From the IMG/VR virus record IMGVR_UViG_3300037010_000822, positions 1-41,480 of that record: DNA of 41,480 bases. One strand, 5' to 3'. The position numbers and the translations under genes were made by a program. The notes under the pieces are model-generated. The model saw only the letters and a list, made by a program, of their open reading frames with translations, was not told the origin of the DNA and ran no database searches. This document shows, piece by piece, positions 23,666 through 28,399 of the stretch (position 1 is its first letter; every line of letters starts with the position of its first letter). The stretch is from a virus.

Positions 23666-24877
23666 TTACCTCGCCATATATGGCAGCGTGACGGAGCGCG
23701 CAGTCGTGCGCTTGCGGATGATCGGCCCCAGCGCATACCGAACAGCATCCCAGCAATGATCGTTGCCGGGCATCAAGTCTGGCTTTACATCGCCAGATAG
23801 CCTATCGATTTTGTAGCTCCACAGCCGCGCTTCTTTTGCTGTGTGCTCACAGCGCGGGTGGATGACGATGCGCTCATAGCTGCGCAAATGCTCGATGCCG
23901 TCCTCCACGCTGCCAGGCCATTTATCGGATGGCCGCATGTATTGATATCCGTTGCGCTGCATGTAGCTGATCGTCTCGGGCCGCGCATTGTCTGCATAGC
24001 TCGCGTGCTCGCGTGCACCGGGGATAGCAGCGAACAGTCGCGGCAGGTTGTCGATCTCGATCCCGTGGCCGTAGGCCTCATGCTCGACGTAGAGTGTGCG
24101 GCCATGTATCCAGCAGCGCACCATCACAGACGGATCGACGGAAAAGCCCCAATCAATCCCGTAGTATGGGCCGTCCCATCCCGGTTGCGGCTCGAACGAC
24201 TCTACCGTATGACGTCCTCGCAGCACCAGTGCATCCGAGCGGGTGAGACATGCCCCCTCCCATACGTGATCGTACTGATCGGGACGGTAGCGCAAATCGT
24301 CCTGGCGCTCCCGATCCAGCTCGGGAGGGAACCACGGGTTGTCTCGCCAGTTGATTTGGACAATTTTAGCGCCTGCCGGCTGATTGATGACAAACCGCTG
24401 ACGCGTGGGCGAATCTTCGCGCTCGGGGTTCCACGTCAGCCAGATTTCCGATCCGGGTTCCCGGATCGTCGGTATCAGCACTCTCCATGATTCTTCACTG
24501 ACGGTTTCCGCTTCTTCTACCCAGCAGATACCGATCCCGGCCATCGACTTGATGGACTGGTAGTTGTGGCGCAATCCCTTAAATAAAAACTCTGTGCCGT
24601 TTTTGCCGCGTATGAAGCCCTCTCCATACTCATATGCGGCCTGCAACCACGGCTCACTATCAATGGCGCGTATTATTTCGGCTTGCGACGATTCTTTGAT
24701 AGAGTTTTGATATTCCCGGCAAGCCAGGATGCGGATCGGCTCAGACAATCCGCGGATCAGCAGCATTTTTGCAAAAGTGAAAGACTTACCACTGCCCCGG
24801 CCACCATATGCGCCGCGATACCGAGACTTACCTGCAAATACCGGAATCAGCTTGTTTGGTATCTGTACCGTTGCCAC
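23666..24877 (-). CDS. terL: Terminase large subunit (PBSX family)
   Basis: A 403-residue packaging motor. Walker A GGRGSGKS is at residues 25-32, Walker B with the catalytic acidic pair in GICWVEEAE at about 116-124, and the C-terminal RNase H-like nuclease has acidic residues in YYGIDWGF (D242), YADNARPE (D296) and NDHCWDAVR (D377). The PBSX-like family generally uses headful packaging, which agrees with a circularly permuted genome. Its start shares base 24877 with the small subunit stop. Confidence 0.93.
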   Translation of the reverse strand: MATVQIPNKLIPVFAGKSRYRGAYGGRGSGKSFTFAKMLLIRGLSEPIRILACREYQNSIKESSQAEIIRAIDSEPWLQAAYEYGEGFIRGKNGTEFLFKGLRHNYQSIKSMAGIGICWVEEAETVSEESWRVLIPTIREPGSEIWLTWNPEREDSPTRQRFVINQPAGAKIVQINWRDNPWFPPELDRERQDDLRYRPDQYDHVWEGACLTRSDALVLRGRHTVESFEPQPGWDGPYYGIDWGFSVDPSVMVRCWIHGRTLYVEHEAYGHGIEIDNLPRLFAAIPGAREHASYADNARPETISYMQRNGYQYMRPSDKWPGSVEDGIEHLRSYERIVIHPRCEHTAKEARLWSYKIDRLSGDVKPDLMPGNDHCWDAVRYALGPIIRKRTTARSVTLPYMAR

Positions 24878-25332
24878 TACGCGCCCTGGATGATTATCTG
24901 CGCCGGCGGGGTGTTTACCTGTATTGCAGTGTCAGGCGACTTTCCGGCCACTACCTCTTTTGCTTTGCTGATGGTATCGGCGCGTGCCCGGTAGTCGTTC
25001 TGGTTCTCGCAAGGATGGGACATGGCTTCCTGCACGTTCTTCAGCGCGGCCTTGTTGAGCCATTCCATGCGCTTAACGCGCTCGTCTACTATCTCATTGT
25101 GCACAGACAACGCCTGTTCCGTTAGCGTTCCCTTTGCCAGTCCAACCCGCACCGCGTCAACGATTAGCTGTTCCTTTTCCGTTCCCTTTGCCCATCCTTC
25201 CAAGCCTGAGCGTTTGCTTAACTGAGTTTTGCTGATTCCGGTTTTGTCAACAATTGCCGACAAGGAAAGTCCGGCCTCGAAATACTCTCGCGCTTTCGCC
25301 CATTGTTCAGGTGTTGTCTTAATGTTCGCCAT
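24877..25332 (-). CDS. terS: Terminase small subunit
   Basis: I chose ATG 25332 (MANIKTTPEQWAKA), with a GAGG ribosome site. The 151-residue protein has an N-terminal helix-turn-helix (YFEAGLSLSAIVDKTGISKTQ) that would bind the packaging site, a helical middle and a C-terminal tail with VNTPPAQIIIQ. It is directly upstream of the large subunit and overlaps the GIY-YIG gene by 14 bases. Confidence 0.8.
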   Translation of the reverse strand: MANIKTTPEQWAKAREYFEAGLSLSAIVDKTGISKTQLSKRSGLEGWAKGTEKEQLIVDAVRVGLAKGTLTEQALSVHNEIVDERVKRMEWLNKAALKNVQEAMSHPCENQNDYRARADTISKAKEVVAGKSPDTAIQVNTPPAQIIIQGA

Positions 25333-25795
25333 TAAGAACCTCATCAACGTAGTTCATCGCGTCATCAATATATTGCATGTCCACAGCATCAAGCTTGAAC
25401 CACTCGCCGCGAAGCCGCTTCTTGTGGAAAAATGAATGCAGCATCAATTCTACCGCCACTGGGTTCTCTACCTCATAACTGCGCAAGGCAAACAATAAAT
25501 ACGGGCACCCCGTCTGCATATCTAACAAGCGGCGCTCAATTGAGTTTGTCAGCCCGATCTTGTATACGCCATGGAATTCTTGCGCTGTAATGATGTAAAT
25601 GAAAGACGGCGATGGCGACACGGAAGAACCCCTATTAACCGGAAGCACGTCACGATCTACGCCCTTTGTGATCTTGGCTACTACGCCGTTACTCACCCCG
25701 CGTTTTTCGGCTATTTGACGCTGGCTTAATTGGCCTAATCGCCAGTCGATCAAAATATCCTCTACCAGTACTTGATCAAGTGGTTTGGCCGCCAT
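25319..25795 (-). CDS. HTH plus GIY-YIG (T5orf172-like) nuclease-like protein
   Basis: I chose ATG 25795 (MAAKPLDQVL); a TTG two codons upstream is possible. Residues about 20-45 (GQLSQRQIAEKRGVSNGVVAKI) form a helix-turn-helix like that of small terminases. Residues 65-135 hold FIYIIT...GVYKIGLTNSIERRL and ...GEWFKL, the GIY-YIG layout of the T5orf172/MUG113 type, with R87-R88 and a Glu in VAVELML as candidate catalytic residues. It is the first gene of the late operon. It could be a homing-type nuclease or assist packaging; neither is proven. Confidence 0.75.
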   Translation of the reverse strand: MAAKPLDQVLVEDILIDWRLGQLSQRQIAEKRGVSNGVVAKITKGVDRDVLPVNRGSSVSPSPSFIYIITAQEFHGVYKIGLTNSIERRLLDMQTGCPYLLFALRSYEVENPVAVELMLHSFFHKKRLRGEWFKLDAVDMQYIDDAMNYVDEVLNGEH

Positions 25796-25847
25796 CTTCA
25801 ACGTAGGCCACGAAAGTGGCTTGCTTAGTCTTTATGTCCATGTCAAT

Positions 25848-25872
25848 AAAAAAGCCGCCATGTTCGGCGGCT
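25848..25872 (-). terminator. Intrinsic terminator in the late-operon leader
   Basis: On the minus strand AGCCGCC pairs perfectly with GGCGGCT around GAACAT and is followed by TTTTTT. It lies between a candidate minus-strand promoter (25927-25955) and the first late gene at 25795. A terminator between a promoter and its genes implies antitermination control, as at lambda PR'-tR'. Confidence 0.75.
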
Positions 25873-25926
25873 ATATGTTCTATTTGGTGCGGATTCGAGA
25901 AACAAAACCGCACCCTATCAACAGTA

Positions 25927-25955
25927 CTTATACACCAGTTCCCGACTTCCAGCAA
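25927..25955 (-). promoter_or_regulatory. Candidate late promoter (minus strand)
   Basis: On the minus strand TTGCTG and TATAAG are separated by 17 bases, a good sigma-70 spacing. The start point would be near 25920. The transcript would pass through the terminator at 25848-25872 before the late genes. The 270-base gap 25802-26071 otherwise holds only the plus-strand promoter and no convincing gene. Confidence 0.5.
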
Positions 25956-25987
25956 CATAAACTAATAAAATATTTTCTGAAAAAGTG

Positions 25988-26015
25988 TTGCTTTTTCTTT
26001 TGATGTGTGTATAAT
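25988..26015 (+). promoter_or_regulatory. Sigma-70-type promoter for the plus-strand cassette
   Basis: TTGCTT (25988-25993) and a perfect TATAAT (26010-26015) are separated by 16 bases. The transcript would start near 26022, ahead of the ribosome site AAAGGAG at 26058 and ATG 26072. Confidence 0.65.
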
Positions 26016-26071
26016 GCAAGTCATGGGATGCAATAACGCAGCCCAGCAACCAACCAAAAGGAGTAGATATC

Positions 26072-26302
26072 ATGAAACTTGGAAAAATTACCGCAGATCA
26101 AATTTTGCGTGATCTTGAATTGGAGCAAGGAACGTGCACAAAAGCACTGATCCGCGATGTTGCTCGCGCAGCCGACGAAACGGGCCTAATTGGCCCGCAC
26201 GCAGCGATGGATTTTTACCCCGGAAATCCGAGGAAGCACACATACACGTACGCGCGACGCGTCCTATTGGACTTGGGGTGCGTGGAGAAAAAGTGGTATT
26301 AG
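26072..26302 (+). CDS. Hypothetical protein of the plus-strand cassette (76 aa)
   Basis: A 76-residue protein starting MKLGKITADQILRDLELEQG, with an AAAGGAG ribosome site. The middle (ALIRDVARAADETGLIGPH) and RKHTYTYARRVLLDLG are helical and basic, as in small nucleic-acid-binding proteins. No family recognised. It is the first gene after the promoter at 25988-26015 and is opposite in strand to the genes on both sides. Confidence 0.6.
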   Translation: MKLGKITADQILRDLELEQGTCTKALIRDVARAADETGLIGPHAAMDFYPGNPRKHTYTYARRVLLDLGCVEKKWY

Positions 26303-26307
26303 GACAA

Positions 26308-26347
26308 CCACGCCCAGGGCCTCACTTGCCCTGGGCGTGGCAAGTGA
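26308..26347 (+). promoter_or_regulatory. Two mutually exclusive RNA hairpins between cassette genes 1 and 2
   Basis: Hairpin 1: thirteen perfect base pairs, 26308-26320 with 26328-26340 (CCACGCCCAGGGC and its complement), loop of seven. Hairpin 2: nine perfect pairs, 26322-26330 (TCACTTGCC) with 26339-26347 (GGCAAGTGA), loop of eight, followed by CAATTTTACC. They share 26328-26330 and 26339-26340, so only one can form fully. Such overlap is typical of attenuators or a terminator with a competing structure; the T-tract is short. Confidence 0.6.
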
Positions 26348-26377
26348 CAATTTTACCCCAAACAAAGGAGAAAAAAC

Positions 26378-26746
26378 ATGAAAATTTTGAATCTGACACA
26401 ACACAGCGCCACCCCTGACCAAATCCTTGCAGGAGTAGTAGACCTGCCGGAATCCGATCGGGACAGCCTAAAAAGGCTGCTGACGTTCGAAACGCTGCCA
26501 ACGGCAGCGGAAATCGTCGAGCGCGCGAACGCCATCGCCGCAATGGAGGAAGGTGGCGAGTACCTCCATGCAATGATCGGAGGGGCGCCATACCTCATGG
26601 CACCCCTCGAAAGGGCCCTGCGTTCAGTTGGGGTTTACCCCGTCTACGCTTTCTCCACACGGGAAAGCGTGGAGCAGGCCGAACCGGATGGCACGGTGCG
26701 GAAGATCAACGTATTCAGGCACGCGGGGTTTGTCCCTGCGGTATAA
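26378..26746 (+). CDS. Conserved-looking hypothetical protein (122 aa), second gene of the plus-strand cassette
   Basis: A 122-residue protein with an AAAGGAGAAAAAAC ribosome site. It starts MKILNLTQHSATPDQ and has AMIGGAPYLMAPLERALRSVG, VYPVYAFSTRESVEQ and a C-terminal NVFRHAGFVPA. Alternating short beta strands and helices suggest an alpha/beta (Rossmann-like) fold. I have the impression of a widespread family but cannot name it. No membrane segment. It is framed by strong hairpins on both sides. Confidence 0.7.
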   Translation: MKILNLTQHSATPDQILAGVVDLPESDRDSLKRLLTFETLPTAAEIVERANAIAAMEEGGEYLHAMIGGAPYLMAPLERALRSVGVYPVYAFSTRESVEQAEPDGTVRKINVFRHAGFVPAV

Positions 26747-26754
26747 GCTATCCT

Positions 26755-26776
26755 TCCCCGCCATGAACGGCGGGGA
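26755..26776 (+). terminator. GC-rich hairpin after cassette gene 2
   Basis: CCCCGCC (26756-26762) pairs with GGCGGGG (26769-26775) around ATGAAC, with one extra T-A pair outside. It lacks a T-tract and is followed 17 bases later by a true terminator, so it may protect the mRNA 3' end. Confidence 0.5.
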
Positions 26777-26792
26777 TGACAATCAGGAATCA

Positions 26793-26813
26793 CCCCGGCA
26801 TAGCCGGGGTTTT
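26793..26813 (+). terminator. Intrinsic terminator after cassette gene 2
   Basis: CCCCGGC (26793-26799) pairs with GCCGGGG (26803-26809) around ATA, followed by TTTTAAT. It lies between the second and third cassette genes, 14 bases ahead of the ribosome site of the third. Confidence 0.65.
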
Positions 26814-26839
26814 AATGACAAAAAACAAAGGAGAAAAAC

Positions 26840-27028
26840 ATGGAAGAGCGGTGGGAAATCGTAGCTGCTCGCTATGATAGTGAGTACAACATATGCGTGA
26901 CTTACGAAAACACCCACAACGATGATCTGTGTTACGTGTGGTATTTTGCGCACGAAATCGCTCAGGCGCCTGCATTGGCCGTGAAACTCGCTGACAAGGA
27001 CGCGGAAGCGTATTCGACGGGGAATTAA
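26840..27028 (+). CDS. Small hypothetical protein, third gene of the plus-strand cassette (62 aa)
   Basis: A 62-residue acidic protein starting MEERWEIVAARYDSEYN, with an AAAGGAGAAAAAC ribosome site almost identical to that of the second gene, which suggests shared origin of the leaders. It has aromatic residues in CYVWYFAHEIAQAP. Family unknown. It lies after the terminator at 26793-26813, so it needs read-through or another promoter. Confidence 0.55.
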   Translation: MEERWEIVAARYDSEYNICVTYENTHNDDLCYVWYFAHEIAQAPALAVKLADKDAEAYSTGN

Positions 27029-27084
27029 ACCATCACACCCAGGGCATGGCGGAAATGGGAGTAGACAAGGCCGAAAGCAAAAGG

Positions 27085-27582
27085 CTAGTCAACAAATAGG
27101 TATTGCGGTTCCGCATCTATGATCCTTGCCACCGCACGCTCCAGCACAGCATCTAGAGCCCGGTATGCGCCGCGCCGCGTCTCAAGTGCTGTAGATTTCC
27201 GGCATTGCAATGCCCGGCGCAATTCTTCCACGCCGCGATTGCGCCCACAATAGGCGTTTATTACATCCTCGATGGCGCGGCGCGAGTGCACCCCTGTTGG
27301 GAGCGCCGCAACGACGATCGGCACAAGATACGCGCGAACATCCGCCGCGTCTGCTATGCCATACAGCGCTCTCAGCAGCGCCATGCTTGGTTTGTCTGTC
27401 GCTCTAGATGCCTGATCTATAATCATCGCTGCGTATGCGTGCCTGTCATGCGCCGTAAGCTCTCCGTGCGACATTCCGCCGCCGCCCATCATCGCAGCCG
27501 ATGCGGATGATGTTTTTATGATCGCTGTGGATTCCACGCGGAATGCCCATGCAAGCGCGTGCTCTACGCTCTTAAATTTCAT
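27085..27582 (-). CDS. Last early-operon gene; candidate late antiterminator (Q position)
   Basis: I chose ATG 27582 (MKFKSVEHALAWAF), which overlaps the upstream stop as ATGA. The 165-residue protein is helical, with a Gly/Met-rich loop (AMMGGGGMSHGEL), a core with AALPTGVHSRRAIEDVINAYCG and a C-terminal GVEELRRALQCRKSTALETRRGA-type segment that could be a helix-turn-helix. It is the last gene of the early minus-strand operon and lies upstream of the late promoter-terminator pair, the position of lambda Q. No family recognised; role inferred from position. Confidence 0.6.
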   Translation of the reverse strand: MKFKSVEHALAWAFRVESTAIIKTSSASAAMMGGGGMSHGELTAHDRHAYAAMIIDQASRATDKPSMALLRALYGIADAADVRAYLVPIVVAALPTGVHSRRAIEDVINAYCGRNRGVEELRRALQCRKSTALETRRGAYRALDAVLERAVARIIDAEPQYLFVD

Positions 27583-27764
27583 CGCAGCCCCTGTTTTTCC
27601 GCTTCCCGTTTTGCGTCTTCTGGCGAGTCGAAAGTTCTGATCATGATCCAATCCATTGTCGCGTGCTCGAATAGCGTGTATCTGTATTTCTCGCCAACCT
27701 TTGCCGCCGCAATACGGTATTTCCCGGATTCCCAAGCTGTCGGCCCGATGCGCGTCCACTTCAC
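27579..27764 (-). CDS. Small hypothetical phage protein (61 aa, GTG start)
   Basis: I chose GTG 27764 because it overlaps the stop of the upstream zinc-finger gene (GTGA); a GTG at 27827 would give a longer product in another gene's frame. The protein has GPTAWESGKYRIAAAKVGEKY and TFDSPEDAKREAEK, typical of small phage proteins with a beta-sheet and a C-terminal helix. It overlaps the following gene by ATGA. Function unknown. Confidence 0.6.
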   Translation of the reverse strand: MKWTRIGPTAWESGKYRIAAAKVGEKYRYTLFEHATMDWIMIRTFDSPEDAKREAEKQGLR

Positions 27765-27925
27765 GCCGTTCTGGCCTGATTTATTTCTTTCCTCCGCCGT
27801 CTTGCTATATCGGCGCAATCGGAGCACTTGTGCCCGCGGATGCTTCCTATCTTACCCCACCGAACAGGAACCCTTCCTTCTATCTGTTTTTCCTTTCGGC
27901 AATACCAGCAGAAAAACTTGTTCAT
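27761..27925 (-). CDS. Small zinc-finger-like protein (54 aa)
   Basis: A short frame starting MNKFFCWYCRKEKQIEG, with a second pair in HKCSDCADIARRRRKE. CxxC (about residues 6-9) and CxxC (about 35-38) make a four-cysteine zinc site, and the basic C-terminus (ARRRRKE) suits nucleic acid binding. The start overlaps the upstream stop (GCATGA) and the stop overlaps the next start. Such small CxxC proteins are common near phage Q genes. Confidence 0.65.
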   Translation of the reverse strand: MNKFFCWYCRKEKQIEGRVPVRWGKIGSIRGHKCSDCADIARRRRKEINQARTA

Positions 27926-28118
27926 GCAGCTTCCCGATAATGCTTCCTACACCGCGCAGGGTAGCTTTTCATCCCTTTGGCGCAGTACGCCCTGCCGAAC
28001 GCTTTACCGACATGGATACAGCCCTGCAGGTAGATGCTTCTTTGCGCTCATACGCAATCGCTGGATCGCCATAACACATCGATGGCAGCGCGTTGCTTTT
28101 TTTTCTTACGGTTTCCAT
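27922..28118 (-). pseudogene. Zinc-finger-like small gene interrupted by an apparent one-base deletion
   Basis: From ATG 28118 the frame reads METVRKKSNALPSMCYGDP then AYERKEASTC. From there the coding pattern jumps to the -1 frame, reading GCIHVGKAFGRAYCAKG then KSYPARCRKHYREAA up to a TGA that overlaps the next gene's ATG. Adding one base in the ACCTGCAGGGCTGT region near 28031-28021 joins the two into one product of about 65 residues with CxxC, C and C...H zinc ligands. There is no slippery heptamer, so a deletion or base-call error is more likely than programmed frameshifting. Confidence 0.5.
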
Positions 28119-28399
28119 TTGCATCCACTACATGCATGCCAAGGTGTCGTCTTACCGCCAGCTGAGTCGCACAATTTCCTGACATGGGCATTTCCTCCAG
28201 GCTTCCAATGCGGACATTCCTGCGTCTGGCGGAATTTGTACCACTTTCCATGAAACTCTTCGGAGTAAACGTTCCGCACGAATGCAGGGCGATTATAGCA
28301 GCTTGGGCGCTCAATTACTTCTGGCGCTTGGGTGCGCTGGAACCACATTTGCCGCACATCGCCTAAGTCGCTTTCGATTTTTGTTACCCCTTTTTCCAT
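28106..28399 (-). CDS. Hypothetical cysteine-containing phage protein (97 aa)
   Basis: A 97-residue protein starting MEKGVTKIESDLGDVRQMWF. The C-terminal third has ECPHWKPGG, KLCDSAGG and HACSGCKWKP, four Cys and several His that could bind zinc. It follows three copies of a GGGTAACAAAATGG element. It overlaps the start of the next small gene by 13 bases. Function unknown; the position is within the nin-like run of small genes. Confidence 0.65.
   Translation of the reverse strand: MEKGVTKIESDLGDVRQMWFQRTQAPEVIERPSCYNRPAFVRNVYSEEFHGKWYKFRQTQECPHWKPGGNAHVRKLCDSAGGKTTPWHACSGCKWKP

Follow-up and report, generated by a model that had tools for sequence, protein, structure and literature searches.

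In phages lambda, 21 and 82 the Q position is filled by different proteins (PMC7171158). Q requires a Q-binding element (QBE) between the -35 and -10 elements, and a -10-like element in the initially transcribed region (PMC6606751). In the lambda genome (J02459), about 42 nt separate the Q stop codon from PR', and the -10-like AACGAT starts 6 nt past the -10. AlpA of Pseudomonas aeruginosa and GafZ of Caulobacter are processive antiterminators whose binding element likewise lies between -10 and -35 (PMC11150451).

The window analysed here is the whole of a linear IMG/VR virus record of 41,480 bases (IMGVR_UViG_3300037010_000822). Its gene content marks it as a tailed phage of the contractile type, and its minus strand carries genes for terminase, portal, major head protein, sheath, tape measure, baseplate and tail fibre. 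The early region, also on the minus strand, is lambdoid-like and encodes DnaB helicase, NinB, RusA-like and NinG proteins. At the junction where the early genes stop and the late genes start, a promoter lies directly 5' of the late operon, as in a Q-type switch. The region very probably works like a Q/PR' switch, a reading well supported by its sequence. The best reading of the whole, and a probable one, is a Q/PR'-type switch in which a 165-aa protein encoded by the last early gene takes the part of Q. The features on which this reading is based are listed in Table 1.

Table 1. Features at the early-late junction of the window and around it.
Feature	Position	Strand	Description
Late operon	2814-25347	minus	About 22 kb of same-strand genes downstream of promoter and terminator: large terminase, portal, major head protein, tail sheath, tape measure, baseplate, tail fibre, endolysin-like
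Small terminase-like gene	24877-25347	minus	Within the late operon
First gene past terminator	about 25319-25801	minus	Helix-turn-helix and T5orf172/MUG113 (GIY-YIG-like) domain
Intrinsic terminator (tR'-like)	25845-25872	minus	Predicted; stem 25853-25872 and T run
RNA hairpin GGTGCGG...CCGCACC	25886-25914	minus	Predicted; between pause region and terminator
Nearly invariant TGCGGTTTTGTTT	25900-25912	minus	Proposed pause region (roughly +16 to +20), from alignment
-10-like TAGGGT	25912-25917	minus	Proposed sigma-dependent pause element, initially transcribed region
-10 element TATAAG	25927-25932	minus	Conserved
Late promoter	25927-25955	minus	TTGCTG-N17-TATAAG
Spacer block C.GGAAC.GG.G	25933-25944	minus	Proposed Q-binding element, from conservation
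-35 element TTGCTG	25950-25955	minus	TTGCGA/TTGCGG in relatives
Divergent promoter of cassette	25988-26015	plus	Probable, from sequence and alignment; TTGCTT-N16-TATAAT
Three-gene cassette (76, 122, 62 aa)	26072-27028	plus	Absent or different in relatives
Cassette ORFs	26072-26302, 26378-26746, 26840-27028	plus	Convergent with the 165-aa gene, divergent from the late promoter
Candidate late antiterminator (Q-like), 165 aa	27085-27582	minus	Last gene of the early operon

Two further genes of this part of the genome deserve mention. The first gene past the terminator may be a mobile insertion, since it is absent from the same place in three relatives (L002, L006 and L018) and present in a rearranged version in a fourth (L012). 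A Cys-rich protein of 97 aa (28106-28399, minus strand) is conserved, together with the sequence downstream of it, in nearly all relatives that are long enough; its search gave no family match.

The ORF at 27085-27582 is a real gene under purifying selection, as it is present in 12 related loci in viral contigs (85-95% identical) with low dN/dS, namely 0.07-0.14 against the window and a median of 0.117 between pairs. All its relatives come from a few metagenomes. Among the 15 records of the virus group that were searched, the six without the gene are fragments recovered through other genes, so that its lack there is uninformative. The initial annotation had taken this ORF for the last early minus-strand gene, standing in the place of Q. 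Its position in the relatives bears this out: it lies directly before the late promoter in L011/L022, where 22-28 nt separate the two, depending on the stop codon taken, and in L004, where it stops 80 nt before the promoter. For the window itself the gene is indeed the last of the early genes, but three plus-strand ORFs, which had gone unmentioned, stand between it and the promoter.

Similar to the window, L006, L008, L009 and L012 have small plus-strand cassettes of variable content in this interval, and plus-strand genes of varying content between the 165-aa gene and the promoter were found in L002, L006, L009, L012 and others. The cassette promoter is largely conserved in the relatives that have a cassette. 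The interval is possibly a hot spot for accessory genes, and repeated insertion of small cassettes into an ancestral Q-promoter junction would be the simplest history. The 122-aa protein of the window's cassette resembles the CRISPR-associated Csx20 at its C-terminus (NCBIfam, E 1.5e-6, below the cut-off; PADLOC, E 5.7e-7), and has a 48% identical homologue in Rhodothermus phage RM378, near the genome end.

The absence of any visible family, already remarked on from the letters alone, was confirmed: hmmscan of Pfam, NCBIfam and PHROGs left the 165-aa protein without a family, and sequence searches of the PDB gave no match. Structure prediction and a search against Q families had been proposed as checks. 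The profiles of lambda Q, Q21 and Q82 (PF03589, PF06530 and PF06323) gave no sequence match to the protein. Equally, tblastn in phages and plasmids found no match, and genome_contigs held no relative. A profile of the candidate, run over every ORF from the NinG and terminase loci, recovered members of the same group alone, and it found nothing credible in 369 and 385 sampled genomes of two classes (754 genomes, searched with no positive control). The lone genome match there (E 0.0014) falls within a long frame whose appearance is not that of a Q. Two weak matches of the protein itself were also discarded: PF18187 (trypanosome RIF5 SNase) at the C-terminus (E 0.03 to 0.00017), which fails the curated cut-off, is biologically implausible and was judged a chance match, and PHROG 9306 (E 0.13), which is not significant. 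Comparison of the candidate with PHROG 304 by hhalign gave a non-significant result (probability 0.15%, E 0.39), with shallow alignments on both sides, and profiles of another group of Q-like proteins (L119, PHROG 3373) did not match the candidate. By the tests run, the protein falls outside every known Q protein family.

Structure prediction told little. The protein is predicted to be all-helical, with helices at residues 101-112, 116-127 and 132-156; the two models agree on helices near 101-112, 117-126 and 135-156, which might form a C-terminal helix-turn-helix at about residues 101-156. Both models are of low confidence (pLDDT 50 and 39), and a Foldseek search with the first of them found no fold match. 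The protein may have a new fold or be a Q21-like protein that has diverged strongly.

A Q-type switch could also employ another conserved early gene as its antiterminator, with the 165-aa protein serving in some other role. The Cys-rich product of 28106-28399 and the small product of 27579-27827 are candidates, and the stretches 27921-28399 and 27579-27763 are conserved along with the 165-aa gene in nearly all relatives extending far enough. We consider this rather unlikely, as the 165-aa gene is the last and the longest and lies directly before the promoter in L011/L022 and L004, its product is helical in the part that could hold a C-terminal helix-turn-helix (in low-confidence models), and related phages hold a Q-like protein of PHROG 304 at its place. 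Gene position and selection are read directly from the sequences. The best reading of the 165-aa protein is a putative new type of Q.

The late promoter had been placed at 25927-25955, and these coordinates are right. A simple consensus promoter scan did not call it, because its -35 element is too weak, and the promoter-like sites of the region were not above shuffles. Unconvincing from its consensus match alone, the promoter is settled by its conservation in relatives. For this comparison the window and eight relatives, making nine distinct lineages, were each anchored on their own late promoter. The common pattern is TTGCG..A...C.GGAAC.GG.GTATAAG.........TAG..TGCGGTTTTGTTT, each named position of which is kept in at least eight of the nine lineages; with its spacing, the layout of the nine reads TTGC(G/T).. 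- C.GGAAC.GG.G - TATAAG - N9 - TAG..TGCGGTTTTGTTT. Allowing three mismatches, the promoter part of the pattern occurs once in the window, with 0 occurrences expected. A scan of the collection also matched a 19-bp core in L020, L021, L027, L028 and L030, which have neither the -35 nor the initially transcribed region; four of them share one sequence, and all five were judged unrelated.

Conservation of the promoter, its spacer and the initially transcribed region is directly visible in the alignment. Per 10-bp block, pairwise identity averages 0.76-0.92 at the -35, the spacer, the -10 and the pause-region core, falling to 0.55 around the presumed start site. The spacer block reaches 0.84-0.87, compared with about 0.3 in the flanks, where blocks mostly have a near-random identity of 0.27-0.43; a single block 5' of the -35, at -20 to -11 relative to it, has 0.66 in this ungapped comparison. 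All nine lineages have a conserved element, the predicted binding site, between -35 and -10. A conserved spacer is unusual for an ordinary promoter, and Q-binding elements are located in the spacer. Within the initially transcribed region the alignment also contains a -10-like TAG..T at a constant spacing: it starts 9 nt past the -10 hexamer in every lineage, is TAGAGT in most relatives, and would be a pause element by prediction.

An intrinsic terminator before the late genes had been reported as well, and it stands. Its stem of 8 bp, GC-rich, runs from 25872 as AGCCGCCGAACATGGCGGCT-TTTTTATT and is followed by the T run. Three terminator-like sites were found on both strands, against 0.3 expected from shuffles of 25760-26120, and about 2% of random 150-nt windows hold a terminator equal to that of the window. 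Eight of the nine lineages have a terminator with a T run between promoter and late genes, at -8.5 to -15.5 kcal/mol and starting 38-59 nt past the -10, while 10% of random 150-nt windows hold one at -8 kcal/mol or better. The hairpins are built from at least four unrelated sequences (GCCGCC, AGCCCGC, AAGCCTGC and ACCCGCC types), and their recurrence in the same place is likewise a plain observation. Since the position is conserved while the sequence varies, the terminator is likely to be functional. In the ninth lineage, L013, the first 150 nt past the late promoter contain no terminator; there (1222-1360) the conserved promoter is followed by a different sequence and a ParB/methyltransferase-like gene.

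A QBE-like spacer, a -10-like element and then a terminator are what a Q-type switch predicts, and the Q/PR'-tR' architecture originally suggested is supported by the conservation of the spacer and of the pause-like region and by a terminator kept by its place. It is unlikely that the promoter is instead an ordinary one, controlled by an activator or repressor with the spacer block as operator, the hairpin acting as an attenuator in the leader or insulating against transcription from further upstream. The weak -35 (TTGCTG/TTGCGA) is like those of activated promoters, and the spacer could serve as an operator; nevertheless, little is conserved across all lineages 5' of the -35, the usual site of an activator, the initially transcribed region is conserved as much as the promoter, and terminators of independent sequence recur between the promoter and the late genes.

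The leader also has a GTGCGG/CCGCAC hairpin after the pause region in six of the nine lineages, which would suit antitermination by the RNA itself (put-like, as in HK022), a conserved 5' RNA and hairpin modifying the polymerase without a phage protein; this is very unlikely, as L009, L004 and L022 have either no such hairpin or an unconvincing one, the untranscribed promoter spacer is conserved too, and an Rfam search gave no family above the gathering threshold. The leader hairpin is weaker evidence than the terminators.

For the Q-type switch with the 165-aa protein as antiterminator, we infer the following course. RNA polymerase would initiate constitutively at the late promoter and pause at about 16-20 nt, through sigma re-binding the -10-like TAG[AG].T. 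In the antiterminator's absence, transcription would end at the hairpin (25853-25872) and leave a leader RNA of roughly 70 nt. The 165-aa protein, last product of the early operon, would bind the spacer block C.GGAAC.GG.G and be loaded onto the paused polymerase, which would then continue past the terminator and transcribe the head and tail genes, about 22 kb. All of these steps are predicted: the pause, the binding, the loading and the read-through, as is the choice of this protein over another early gene as Q.

Q is a role taken by proteins unrelated in sequence. In the present case the promoter, the candidate binding element, the pause element, the terminator and the protein are all defined by conservation alone, so that a short DNA fragment together with a single gene would suffice to test for a new Q family. 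Terminators that differ in sequence and not in place also offer a way to find such switches when the protein is unrecognisable. Tentatively, the 165-aa protein may be the first of a Q family that shares neither sequence nor, perhaps, fold with lambda Q, Q21, Q82, AlpA and GafZ and that has its own QBE, C.GGAAC.GG.G. If true, this would be another independent origin of processive antitermination of late genes.

Similar to lambda Q/PR'-tR' (PF03589), the locus has the order candidate Q gene, promoter, terminator and late genes, with a candidate QBE in the promoter spacer and a -10-like element in the initially transcribed region. That element is TAG[AG].T at 9 nt past the -10 here and AACGAT at 6 nt in lambda. 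Unlike in lambda, the proposed QBE is a different one, a plus-strand cassette lies between gene and promoter in the window, and the proteins have no similarity. Phage 21 Q (PF06530) is also a small helical protein, and a possible C-terminal helix-turn-helix is predicted for the 165-aa protein; like phage 21 PR', the locus has a candidate site in the promoter spacer and a putative pause element. In contrast to phage 21, the locus has no clear TGAGCA-like direct repeat, the fold is predicted here by low-confidence models, and the proteins do not match in sequence. With the Q82 family (PF06323) the candidate shares genomic position and proposed role, without a sequence match. AlpA and GafZ show that unrelated proteins can fill the role; they belong to cellular or gene-transfer-agent systems, unlike the phage window.

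A further comparison is offered by the phages with the next-closest terminases (61% identical), the L200 group, in which the protein at the corresponding place matches PHROG 304, annotated as 'anti-termination protein Q-like', with E 3.6e-7. In these phages (L200 and L283-L287), which have related terminases, it occupies the corresponding position before a terminator. After the PHROG 304 gene, L283 (3044-3200), L284 (2152-2320), L286 and L287 have AAATGGCCGCA repeats about 17 bp apart and then the terminator. These direct repeats, clearest in L284, L286 and L287 and absent in the window, are a candidate binding site of the PHROG 304 Q family. Because the L200 group carries a PHROG 304 protein at this site, the site is a Q position, filled by differing proteins in different phages.
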